A stretch of 64,000 nt of DNA from Candidatus Nanopelagicus limnes (lineage in GTDB: Bacteria; Actinomycetota; Actinomycetes; Nanopelagicales; Nanopelagicaceae), in the NCBI RefSeq assembly GCF_002287885.2, contig NZ_CP016768.2, positions 310,001-374,000 on the forward strand. The letters run 5' to 3'. Shown here piece after piece: positions 25,557-31,203 of this stretch. Below the pieces are notes generated by a model. The model saw only the letters and a list, made by a program, of their open reading frames with translations, searched no databases and was not told the origin of the DNA. The position numbers and the translations under genes are program-made. Position 1 is the first letter of the stretch. Each line of letters opens with the position of its first letter.

Positions 25557-25592
25557 AAAACCCCCGCACATCCTAGAGTGCGGGGGTTTTTT
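25557..25592 (+). terminator. Rho-independent terminator of pstS
   Basis: CCCCCGCAC (25561-25569) and GTGCGGGGG (25578-25586) form a perfect nine-pair stem with an eight-base loop, followed by six T. An upstream A-run (25557-25560) makes it partly bidirectional. Confidence 0.92.
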
Positions 25593-25712
25593 ACATTTAT
25601 TGATCAGGACTTAATCTGATTTGAGCATGAAAGTAGATTTAAGAAATCATTTAGGGTAGATTTACTTTTGTAGCTGTAACGAACCACAGATTGCTAGATA
25701 AAGATCTGCGTT

Positions 25713-25793
25713 ATGGGTGTGGACTCCGGAGGACCCGGGCCACTTAATAATACGCAAAGGGGTGGAATCCGGTTTACACCGGAGTCAGCCCAT
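25713..25793 (+). ncRNA. Structured 5' leader RNA, candidate riboswitch of unknown class
   Basis: GACTCCGG (25722-25729) pairs perfectly with CCGGAGTC (25779-25786). Outside it, ATGGG (25713-25717) pairs with CCCAT (25789-25793), whose last two bases are the start of the ATG. The closing helix therefore buries both the GGAG ribosome site (25781-25784) and the start codon. The ~50-base enclosed part has CCAC (25740-25743)/GTGG (25762-25765) pairing. An alternative local hairpin TCCGG (25768-25772)/CCGGA (25779-25783) competes for the same strand. This is a plausible translational switch; I cannot match it to a known riboswitch family. Confidence 0.5.
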
Positions 25794-27204
25794 GCCAGCG
25801 ATAAATCCAATTGTTTTAAACTCATTAGCAGATCTACAACCATCTTTGTATTGGTTAGATGCTGATCCATTAGAGCCAAGCTCTCACTCTGCCTTAACCA
25901 GTGATATTCAAACTGATCTTTGCATTATTGGCGCCGGCTACACCGGACTTTGGACGGCGCTCCTTGCAAAGGAGCGAGAACCAAACCGAGAGGTAGTAAT
26001 TATTGAGATGCGTGAGACTGGCAATGGGGCCTCAGGTAGAAATGGTGGATTTTGTAACGCATCTTTAACCCACGGTTTTGTTAATGGTTACACCCGCTTT
26101 CCTGATGAGATGGCGATAATTGAAAAGTTGGGGAGAGAAAATCTTGATGCGATGGAAGAGACAATAAAGAGATACAAGATTGATTGTGATTTTGAAAGAA
26201 ATGGTGAGCTGCGTATGGCAGTTGCCCCATGGCAGATGGCTGGTTTAAAAGAAGAGGCGATTGCTAGGAATAAAACTGGAGATCATGTTGAGGTATTAGA
26301 TAGGGATCAAGTTAGAGCATTAGTTAACTCACCGATTTATGAAGGCGCACTCTTTGATCATGATGGAACTGCGCTAGTTGATCCAGCCAGATTAGTTTGG
26401 GGACTTGAGAAGGCTTGTTTATCACTTGGAGTAAAGATCTATGAAAACTCTAAAGTGGATGAGTTAATAGATGATGGTGATCATGTTGTGGTTAAGAGCG
26501 CTTATGGATCTATAAGGGCTAAGAAGGTAGCCCTTGCCACAAATGTTTACACGCCCCTGATTAAGAGTGTTAAAAAATATGTAATTGCAGTTTATGACTT
26601 TCAATTAGTAACTCAGCCGTTAACTGCTGAGCAATTAGAAAGTATTGGTTGGAAAGGCCGGGAAGGACTCTCTGATGCTGGGTATCAATTCCATTACTAC
26701 CGGTTAACTAAAGAGAATGAGATTTTATGGGGTGGTTATGATGCGGTTTATAACTATGCAGGAAAGGTTCGCCAGGAGTATGAAACACGTCCTGAAACCT
26801 ATGCAAAGCTTGCAACTAACTTCTTTAAAACCTTTCCGCAGTTAGCTGGAATAAAATTCACCCATGGTTGGGGTGGGGCAATTGATACCTGCTCAAGATT
26901 TTCACCCTTTTGGGGACAAGCATTTGATGACAAGGTGGCATACGTTCTTGGCTATACCGGCTTAGGGGTAGCAACAACAAGATTTGGTGCATCAGTAATG
27001 CTTGATTTACTAGATGGTGTTGAAAGTGAAGCAACGCAATTATCGATGGTTAAACACAAACCAATTCCATTTCCACCAGAACCATTTAGATTCTTATTTA
27101 TCAGACTTACTCAATGGGCGATAACTAGAGCAGATAAGAATGGCGGTAAGCGTAATCTTTGGCTACGCCTACTTGATCGACTTGGATTGGGCTTTGATTC
27201 TTAA
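25792..27204 (+). CDS. FAD-dependent oxidoreductase (DAO family)
   Basis: The protein is 470 residues from the ATG at 25792, chosen because GGAG sits eight bases upstream and family members begin near PAINPIVLNSLADLQPSLYW. The FAD site reads DLCIIGAGYTGLWTALLAKE, followed by ASGRNGGFCNASLTHG; the C-terminal part has GYTGLGVATTRFGASVMLDL. DAO enzymes oxidise amines or amino acids (glycine, sarcosine, glutamylputrescine and others); the substrate is not readable here. It is a single gene after the pstS terminator with an unusual structured leader, so metabolite control is plausible. A longer frame from 25717 exists but would run through the helix. Confidence 0.85.
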   Translation: MPAINPIVLNSLADLQPSLYWLDADPLEPSSHSALTSDIQTDLCIIGAGYTGLWTALLAKEREPNREVVIIEMRETGNGASGRNGGFCNASLTHGFVNGYTRFPDEMAIIEKLGRENLDAMEETIKRYKIDCDFERNGELRMAVAPWQMAGLKEEAIARNKTGDHVEVLDRDQVRALVNSPIYEGALFDHDGTALVDPARLVWGLEKACLSLGVKIYENSKVDELIDDGDHVVVKSAYGSIRAKKVALATNVYTPLIKSVKKYVIAVYDFQLVTQPLTAEQLESIGWKGREGLSDAGYQFHYYRLTKENEILWGGYDAVYNYAGKVRQEYETRPETYAKLATNFFKTFPQLAGIKFTHGWGGAIDTCSRFSPFWGQAFDDKVAYVLGYTGLGVATTRFGASVMLDLLDGVESEATQLSMVKHKPIPFPPEPFRFLFIRLTQWAITRADKNGGKRNLWLRLLDRLGLGFDS

Positions 27205-29575: not shown

Positions 29576-30829
29576 ATGCTTAAATCTAGAATCCACCCAG
29601 CTTGGATTGTTGCTGGCATAACCTTTGGCACATTATTTGCTACCGCAGGTTTTAGAAGCGCGCCTTCTGTATTAATCCTGCCCCTTGAAGAGGATTTTGG
29701 TTGGCGCAGGGATGTTATTTCTCTAGCTGTTGCAATCAATGTTTTACTTTATGGTTTGACGGCGCCCTTTGCTGCGGCCTTAATGGAGCGATTTACTGTT
29801 CGAAAAGTTGTGATGGCAGCTTTAACCACTGTTGGCACCGGAGCGCTATTAACAATTTGGATGAGTCAAAGTTGGCATCTGATGCTGCTTTGGGGAGTAG
29901 TTGTTGGCGTTGGCACAGGATCAATGGCATTAGTTTTTGCGGCCACTATTGCAAATAGATGGTTTGTTAAAAAACGTGGGCTAGTAATTGGAATCTTGAC
30001 TGCAGCAGCAGCCTCTGGCCAATTAGTTTTCTTACCTGGTCTATCAAAGCTTGCCCAAGATCCAGGTTGGCGGGCATCCTCATTAGTAATCGCGCTCGGT
30101 GCTTATTTAATGGTGCCGTTGATCTTTTTCTTTCTTAAGGAGGATCCACAAAGTATTGGAACTACTCCATATGGCGCAGATAAAGATTGGGTGCCACCAG
30201 TATTACAAAAAGGTAATGCTGCAAAGGTTGCAATTAATACTTTAAAGGATGCCTCAAAGGTTAAGAATTTTTGGTATCTAGTTGGTTCATTTTTTGTTTG
30301 TGGTCTTTCAACTAGCGGCCTTATTGGCACACATTTTATTCCAGCAGCTCATGATCATGGAATGCCAACAGTTACTGCAGCATCCTTACTGGCACTAATT
30401 GGCGTCTTTGATGTGGTGGGAACCATTTTTTCTGGCTTTTTAACTGATCGAATTGATCCAAGAAAATTACTCTTTTTCTACTACTTACTTCGAGGGCTTT
30501 CTCTATTTTTACTGCCATCAATTCTTTTCTCAACACTTCATCCATCAACGCTAGTCTTCATAATTTTCTATGGCCTAGATTGGGTAGCAACTGTGCCACC
30601 AACGGTGTTGTTATGCCGTCAGGTATTAACTCCGGAAAAGGGCGCAATTATTTATGGTTGGGTCTTTGCAGCCCACCAAGTAGGCGGTGCTATCGCAGCC
30701 TTTGGCGCTGCGGTATTAAGAATTAAATTTGGAGATTACGCAGCAGCGTTTTATTTAACTGGAATTTTGTGTGTTGTTACCTCCTACTTTGTATTACAAA
30801 TTACCTTAAAAGAGAAGGTTAAATCTTGA
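29576..30829 (+). CDS. MFS transporter
   Basis: This 417-residue protein has about twelve hydrophobic segments in two halves with a central hydrophilic loop (about 195-220). The region between helices 2 and 3 (AALMERFTVRKVVMAAL) fits the MFS A-motif position, and a second copy appears as FLTDRIDPRKLLFF. It resembles the monocarboxylate/oxalate-formate group by the early PLEEDFGWRRDVISLA segment. The substrate is unknown. It starts four bases after the thioesterase gene and its stop overlaps the haemoglobin start by 4 bp. Confidence 0.85.
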   Translation: MLKSRIHPAWIVAGITFGTLFATAGFRSAPSVLILPLEEDFGWRRDVISLAVAINVLLYGLTAPFAAALMERFTVRKVVMAALTTVGTGALLTIWMSQSWHLMLLWGVVVGVGTGSMALVFAATIANRWFVKKRGLVIGILTAAAASGQLVFLPGLSKLAQDPGWRASSLVIALGAYLMVPLIFFFLKEDPQSIGTTPYGADKDWVPPVLQKGNAAKVAINTLKDASKVKNFWYLVGSFFVCGLSTSGLIGTHFIPAAHDHGMPTVTAASLLALIGVFDVVGTIFSGFLTDRIDPRKLLFFYYLLRGLSLFLLPSILFSTLHPSTLVFIIFYGLDWVATVPPTVLLCRQVLTPEKGAIIYGWVFAAHQVGGAIAAFGAAVLRIKFGDYAAAFYLTGILCVVTSYFVLQITLKEKVKS

Positions 30830-31203
30830 GCGAGAGTTTTTATGTAAGGGCCGGGGGAGAGAAAACCTTTAATGATTTAGTCTCTCACTTCTACGCATTA
30901 GTTGCAGTTAATCCAATCCTTCGCCCGATGTATCCAGAAAATGATCTACATGGTGCGGGAAGAAGGCTGCAAATGTTTTTAGAGCAGTACTGGGGTGGAC
31001 CAACTACTTATAGTGATGAAAGAGGCCACCCAAGATTGCGAATGCGTCACGCCCCATTTCATATTTCACGGATAGAACATGATGCTTGGTTAATCTGTAT
31101 GAAGGATGCGGTTAATGGTCTTGAGATTGGTGATGATTTAAAGGCTGAGTTATGGGAGTACTTAGAGGCAGCAGCTGCTGCGATGATTAACGCGGCTGAG
31201 TGA
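30826..31203 (+). CDS. Group II truncated haemoglobin (TrHbO type)
   Basis: The 125-residue protein has the 2-over-2 globin layout: FNDLVSHFYALVAVNPILRP with the B10 Tyr region, FLEQYWGGPTTYSDERGHPR, and RMRHAPFHI with the proximal His of helix F. A Trp at the G8-like position (DAWLICMKDAV) supports group II. Such proteins bind O2 or NO, with roles in oxygen delivery or nitrosative stress defence. It starts at a TTG overlapping the MFS stop, giving 4-bp coupling. Confidence 0.88.
   Translation: MSESFYVRAGGEKTFNDLVSHFYALVAVNPILRPMYPENDLHGAGRRLQMFLEQYWGGPTTYSDERGHPRLRMRHAPFHISRIEHDAWLICMKDAVNGLEIGDDLKAELWEYLEAAAAAMINAAE

Follow-up and report, generated by a model that had tools for sequence, protein, structure and literature searches.

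An uncatalogued leader RNA of the Nanopelagicaceae, a candidate orphan riboswitch upstream of an amine-oxidase-type gene

Validated polyamine riboswitches are scarce: a single class is established, derived from SAM-I, and its authors expect more to be found (PMC10853860). This spermidine riboswitch (Salvail et al. 2023) is a SAM-I variant which terminates transcription before polyamine synthesis genes (PMC10853860). The leader RNA described here shares with it a polyamine-related gene context, whereas it differs in having no SAM-I or other Rfam match, no visible terminator and a position before a likely catabolic gene; it also lacks the SAM-I architecture, as judged against the SAM-I model only. 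The potE and odc1 motifs (PMC8632094) are likewise lineage-restricted leaders with one main gene association and a link to polyamine metabolism, but the potE motif has been described as lacking good covariation or an expression platform and odc1 as a uORF element (PMC8632094), and going by these published descriptions the present leader is set apart by its covariation and by its adjacent Shine-Dalgarno (SD) sequence, hairpin P4 and AUG. With regard to translation, phage T4 gene 25 provides an experimental precedent in which a hairpin between SD and AUG shortens the spacing from 27 to 11 nt (PMC3014915), and as in T4 genes 25 and 38, a hairpin in our leader would bridge an over-long spacer, from 27–29 to about 13 nt. 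The T4 genes have no sensor domain, whereas the strands of the hairpin studied here are complementary to the core of a conserved domain upstream.

The leader lies in a 64,000 nt stretch of DNA (the window; positions 310,001 to 374,000 of NZ_CP016768.2) from Candidatus Nanopelagicus limnes, which has a complete genome of 1.24 Mb. The original prediction drew a structured leader at 25713–25793, upstream of a FAD oxidoreductase gene, and thereby missed a third of the element: this oxidase leader spans 25673–25794 on the forward strand, with its first helix (P1, at 25674) starting about 40 nt further 5'. From 5' to 3' it consists of P1 around P2, P3 with the core, a linker, the SD, P4 and the AUG at 25792, and its features and surroundings in the window are as follows.

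25561–25593, forward strand: intrinsic-terminator-like hairpin with T run at the end of the upstream pstS gene (CCCCCGCAC...GTGCGGGGG then TTTTTT, identified by eye)
25657–25662, forward strand: -10 promoter box TAGATT, a TANNNT box being found 5' of P1 in homologues
25673–25745, forward strand: aptamer-like domain P1-P2-P3-core, based on the covariance-model match, pair counts, tree-based covariation and clean deletion in relatives
25674–25681, forward strand: 5' strand of P1, partner of 25709–25716 (both-sided changes in 6 of 8 pairs, 96–97% of cells paired)
25687–25708, forward strand: P2 hairpin, 25687–25691 with 25704–25708 (both-sided changes in all 4 modelled pairs)
25709–25716, forward strand: 3' strand of P1, with the same pair counts as the 5' strand
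25717–25722, forward strand: 5' strand of P3, partner of 25740–25745 (both-sided changes in 3 of 6 pairs)
25723–25739, forward strand: near-invariant core ACUCCGGAGGACCCGGG (UCCGGAGGACCCGGG present in 98/100 homologues), likely the ligand site
25740–25745, forward strand: 3' strand of P3, based on pair counts
25757–25764, forward strand: conserved Shine-Dalgarno sequence AAGGGGUG, complementary to the 16S tail GGATCACCTCC
25768–25783, forward strand: P4 hairpin U-CCGG-N6-CCGG-A in the SD-to-AUG interval, paired in all homologues
25713–25793, forward strand: genus-specific alternative fold, 25713–25717 with 25789–25793 plus 25722–25729 with 25779–25786 (forced fold energy)
25792–27204, forward strand: DAO-family FAD oxidoreductase of 470 aa (PF01266, 197.6 bits)

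The terminator-like hairpin sets the leader apart from the pst operon. P3, which is mismatched at 25718–25744 in the window and frequently carries one internal mismatch across the RNA family, encloses the near-invariant core CUCCGGAGGACCCGGG, within which a CCGG-AGGAC-CCGG hairpin (25726–25729 with 25735–25738) is proposed. The layout common to homologues comprises P1/P2, P3 around ACUCCGGAGGACCCGGG, a variable linker, AAGGGGUGA, CCGG-N6-CCGG, approximately 8 nt and the start codon, for which one locus (L138) has GTG in the position of ATG. A further hairpin in the linker 5' of the SD, inspected by eye, was inconsistent across genera and was not retained.

Orthologues of the oxidase were gathered by protein and their upstream regions compared. 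A covariance model made from eight divergent sequences, none of them a close relative from the clade of the window (R1), recovered the window at 25673–25794 with 78.9 bits (E 5e-18), and a second model made from 46 sequences (R2) gave 97.7 bits for the same match. Matches to R1 were found in 121/296 Nanopelagicaceae genomes representing 10/17 genera, while the oxidase gene is present at E<=1e-100 in 142/296; most R1 match positions in the family adjoin oxidase gene positions, every RNA locus with a readable downstream gene precedes the same FAD oxidoreductase, and some relatives have the oxidase gene without the RNA. Outside the family, R2 gave one weak match each in a class sample (394 genomes, E 0.008, genome G339) and a phylum sample (376 genomes, E 0.005, G910 = L189), the latter in a sequence without the core, and both were taken as chance; a 25-bit match (G458:C6) before an apparent electron-transfer-flavoprotein start also lacked the core and was rejected. 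A class-wide search with short patterns allowing one mismatch was uninformative, as G+C-rich genomes yielded chance matches at about the frequency seen with the reversed control, and viral contigs gave no match to the leader RNA. The suggestion that the leader belongs to no known class held, as the proposed Rfam search, run with Rfam 15 on the whole window, the leader alone and seven homologous loci, gave no covariance-model score at or above the gathering cut-off. SAM-I did not match the leader even at E<=10, and the best sub-threshold match, to the Brucella sRNA BSnc120 (RF02621; 17.8 bits with a cut-off of 114, E 0.18), is at chance level. A literature search that did not include the Weinberg 2017 motif paper found no published description of this leader RNA.

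Covariation was assessed with increasing numbers of sequences. The eight-sequence set contained 19 cells with both-sided changes versus 5.9 in shuffles, the 46-sequence set 87 versus 23 in shuffles and 7–26 in slid controls, and the set of 100 sequences (95 distinct) 177 versus 47 in shuffles; with 46 sequences, 94.6% of the cells of the 26-pair model were paired and 15 pairs showed both-sided changes. Since shuffles ignore kinship, we also made a tree-based null in which substitutions were randomly redistributed over a FastTree tree, and scored column pairs by a G-test with average-product correction. With 46 sequences, model pairs in P1, P2 and P3 took the first five ranks among all column pairs; with all pairs counted only two, both in P1, passed E<0.05, and no false ones did. 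With 95 sequences the top four were model pairs, of which one passed E<0.05, while six passed if only the 26 proposed pairs were counted. Fitting to the model biases alignments A4 and A5 in its favour, but a structure-blind MAFFT alignment, free of such fitting, placed the same P1/P2 pairs on top. The core hairpin does not vary and P4, including its CCGG segments, hardly does, with one compensated CCAG/CUGG pair (L135); covariation therefore lends no support to the core hairpin or to core-P4 pairing. The leader is thus a real structured RNA, with a P1-P3 structure that covaries around a conserved core, the combination expected of a riboswitch at the sequence level.

These results refute an origin in chance inverted repeats, i.e. 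a G+C-rich block in an A+T-rich genome, to which we now give practically no credence: the folding of the single sequence is only mildly unusual, the leader region folding better than shuffles with a z-score of -2.3 (5 of 200), as such an origin would allow, yet it is conserved and covaries over 10 genera. It is also highly improbable that the leader is translated, either as a uORF or as an N-terminal extension from GTG 25717, since this frame, open in the window, is shifted or stopped in relatives (e.g. L011, L013, L014) while the RNA pairing is kept.

The helices originally drawn are present in the window: eight perfect pairs join 25722–25729 (GACUCCGG) to 25779–25786 (CCGGAGUC), five outer pairs join 25713–25717 (AUGGG) to 25789–25793 (CCCAU) and include the start codon (ATG 25792), and the competing local hairpin UCCGG/CCGGA (25768–25772 with 25779–25783), which is part of P4, shares its 3' strand with the eight-pair helix. 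As conserved features they did not stand, with C25724-G25784 found in 4/46 and G25715-C25791 in 5/46 homologues; the five outer pairs and the outer part of the eight-pair helix are confined to the window's own genus, whereas nearly all of the 46 homologues retain P1, P2, the core and P4, and most of them P3. Covariation in relatives, which had been proposed as the check on these helices, is found in P1-P3 instead. Similarly, the GGAG at 25781–25784, which had been taken for the ribosome site, occurs only in that clade, and the conserved site is AAGGGGUG at 25757–25764. In the window the fold of the original prediction, when forced, has a modelled energy of -46.1 kcal/mol versus -44.5 for the best completion of the conserved fold, and it would represent a genus-specific alternative that buries the AUG and half of P4. 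The notion of an unassigned riboswitch before a FAD oxidoreductase gene was therefore borne out by the ten genera, the covariation, the single gene and the lack of an Rfam match, but not in its helices or its ribosome site.

In all 99 homologues with upstream sequence, a TANNNT box ends 6–10 nt 5' of P1, and in many it overlaps the stop codon of the permease gene that precedes the leader. With this spacing the transcript should start at P1, with a predicted start at approximately 25669–25673, at its foot, and not downstream of 25730; judged by this motif, and with the AUG right after P4, the leader sits in the 5' UTR of the oxidase mRNA. The conserved SD, of the form AAGGGGUG(A), pairs with the 16S tail (GGATCACCTCC, which occurs once in the genome) at -14.5 to -20.2 kcal/mol in the homologues and -15.0 in the window, versus -2.6 to -8.7 kcal/mol for the 16 nt before the AUG. 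It is separated from the AUG by 27–29 nt with P4 in between, and thus has the make-up of a split ribosome-binding site, a strong SD at an unusable distance with an intervening hairpin.

Natural deletions separate the two halves of the leader. One genus has 13 loci (L168-L173, L176, L177, L179-L183) in which everything from P1 through the core is missing, while the promoter, a CAACUAC remnant, the SD (GAGGUGAUUU), P4 and the start codon are retained. In L128 and L130 both promoter and aptamer are missing, the permease gene extends into the remnant, and the SD (the full AAGGGGUGA in L128, AAGAUGUGA in L130), P4 and AUG follow, and in L174, L175 and L178 the whole leader is missing, with the ATG directly after the permease gene. 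As the aptamer is lost while SD, P4 and AUG are kept, the 5' part constitutes a regulatory domain that can be removed, and SD-P4-AUG a translation start unit. The distant orthologues L040 (597–664), L044 and L046 have no core, but do have a strong SD, with GUGGGUGA, and before the AUG, where P4 would lie, a different strong hairpin, and their bridged ribosome site looks independent. That P4 and SD persist in relatives without the upstream domain could also be expected of an unregulated, constitutive element, with P1-P3 shielding the mRNA at its 5' end and P4 doing no more than span the SD-to-AUG interval. Stems at the 5' end can stabilise mRNA, but a simple protective stem would not hold a 15-nt core in 98/100 homologues while its stems change freely, and we consider such an element quite improbable.

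In the mechanism that we propose instead, transcription would start at the foot of P1, and P1-P2-P3 with the invariant core would form a sensor domain, while P4 would bring the strong, distant SD to a working distance from the AUG, as in T4 gene 25. Pairing of the core's CCGG segments could occur either within the core or with those of P4, so that the fold of the sensor would decide whether P4 forms and hence whether SD and AUG are usable; two exclusive states via CCGG strands, an idea of the original prediction, are plausible, if unproven. A compound of the polyamine pathway would favour the core fold, thereby free P4 and turn translation on. In the modelled energetics, the core-P4 fold lies within approximately 5 kcal/mol of the core-hairpin fold in nearly all of the 46 homologues, the outliers being L135 and the misaligned L033; the difference (core-P4 minus core-hairpin) averages 1.7 kcal/mol and ranges from -4.4 to 12.4, with misaligned P4 columns distorting the L033 value, and the sign of the difference varies among homologues. 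The core hairpin has a mean pair probability of 0.53, compared with 0.26 for core-P4 pairing, and these energetics permit switching without proving it. The frozen CCGG segments were rejected as proof of core-P4 pairing, as the 13 recent losers of the aptamer also keep the P4 CCGG.

The ON switch by a ligand-stabilised core is the favoured reading, and its main alternative is an OFF switch, with the SD masked by the folded core, either via ACCC:GGGU (25733–25736 with 25760–25763) or via a longer P4, and the ligand acting as a repressor. Both segments are conserved and complementary, but L133 and L136 have GAGGUG as their SD, so that one of the four ACCC:GGGU pairs is lost with the core unchanged, and catabolic genes are usually substrate-induced; we regard an OFF switch as possible, though on the unlikely side.

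Both the ON direction and a polyamine-pathway signal are suggested because the gene is probably catabolic and sits in a polyamine/agmatine/GABA gene set. The oxidase, 98% identical to a protein recorded under Candidatus Planktophila sp. BS7, scores below the cut-off for TIGR03329 and pipecolate oxidase, among solved structures its sequence comes closest, if weakly, to sarcosine oxidase beta subunits, and it is probably a catabolic enzyme of the amine-oxidase type. A polyamine transporter operon precedes the gene in most of the genera compared. In 8/16 neighbourhoods, from several genera, genes for an aminobutyraldehyde dehydrogenase, a PotD-like protein, PotA and two permeases are followed, in this order, by the RNA and oxidase; an agmatinase-like ureohydrolase comes next in five neighbourhoods and a GABA transaminase is nearby in most, with the aminobutyraldehyde dehydrogenase, PotA, agmatinase and GABA transaminase all above NCBIfam cut-offs. 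Polyamine transporters are known from acI genomes (PMC5301498, PMC5574706). In the genome of the window the polyamine (pot) cluster is intact but without the oxidase (G000:C1:390500-402500, L257), approximately 55 kb away, and the oxidase and its RNA thus remain linked even outside the operon. The window oxidase lies behind the pst phosphate operon, apart from the usual polyamine cluster. The gap in that cluster (L257 6586-9549) holds two adjacent genes whose products look secreted, resemble each other at the N-terminus and contain HExxH-like stretches (HEFYH/HEMLH), and elsewhere in the window (30826–31203) a bacterial-like (truncated) globin gene follows an MFS transporter.

The ligand is probably polyamine-related, with the qualification that association with a single gene makes for weak evidence on a ligand. 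In S. coelicolor, SCO5671 is the predicted gamma-glutamylpolyamine oxidoreductase (PuuB orthologue) and alone in its pathway is not clearly polyamine-induced (PMC5403932), which may count against a polyamine ligand if SCO5671 is orthologous to the window oxidase. The single gene association and narrow distribution would also fit autoregulation, and a regulator or the oxidase itself could bind the short invariant core, with no small-molecule ligand involved; with no candidate RNA-binding protein linked to the leader RNA and the oxidase kept where the RNA is lost, we consider a protein-binding leader unlikely.

Overall, we think it likely that the leader is an uncatalogued cis-regulatory RNA, an orphan riboswitch candidate of the Nanopelagicaceae that controls translation of the oxidase through a core/P4 switch turned on by a polyamine-pathway signal. 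More tentatively, and with considerable doubt, it could represent a new riboswitch class for a polyamine-pathway compound, which permits P4 to bridge SD and AUG, controls translation by distance and turns on catabolism; candidate compounds are putrescine, spermidine, agmatine, a glutamylated polyamine or a guanidino acid. The finding adds a well-supported orphan regulatory RNA from some of the most abundant freshwater bacteria, in which close relatives without the sensor constitute a built-in natural experiment and the shortlist of ligands is testable. If the bridging-hairpin mechanism is true, these bacteria would use an unusual control of translation by distance instead of simple masking of the ribosome site.
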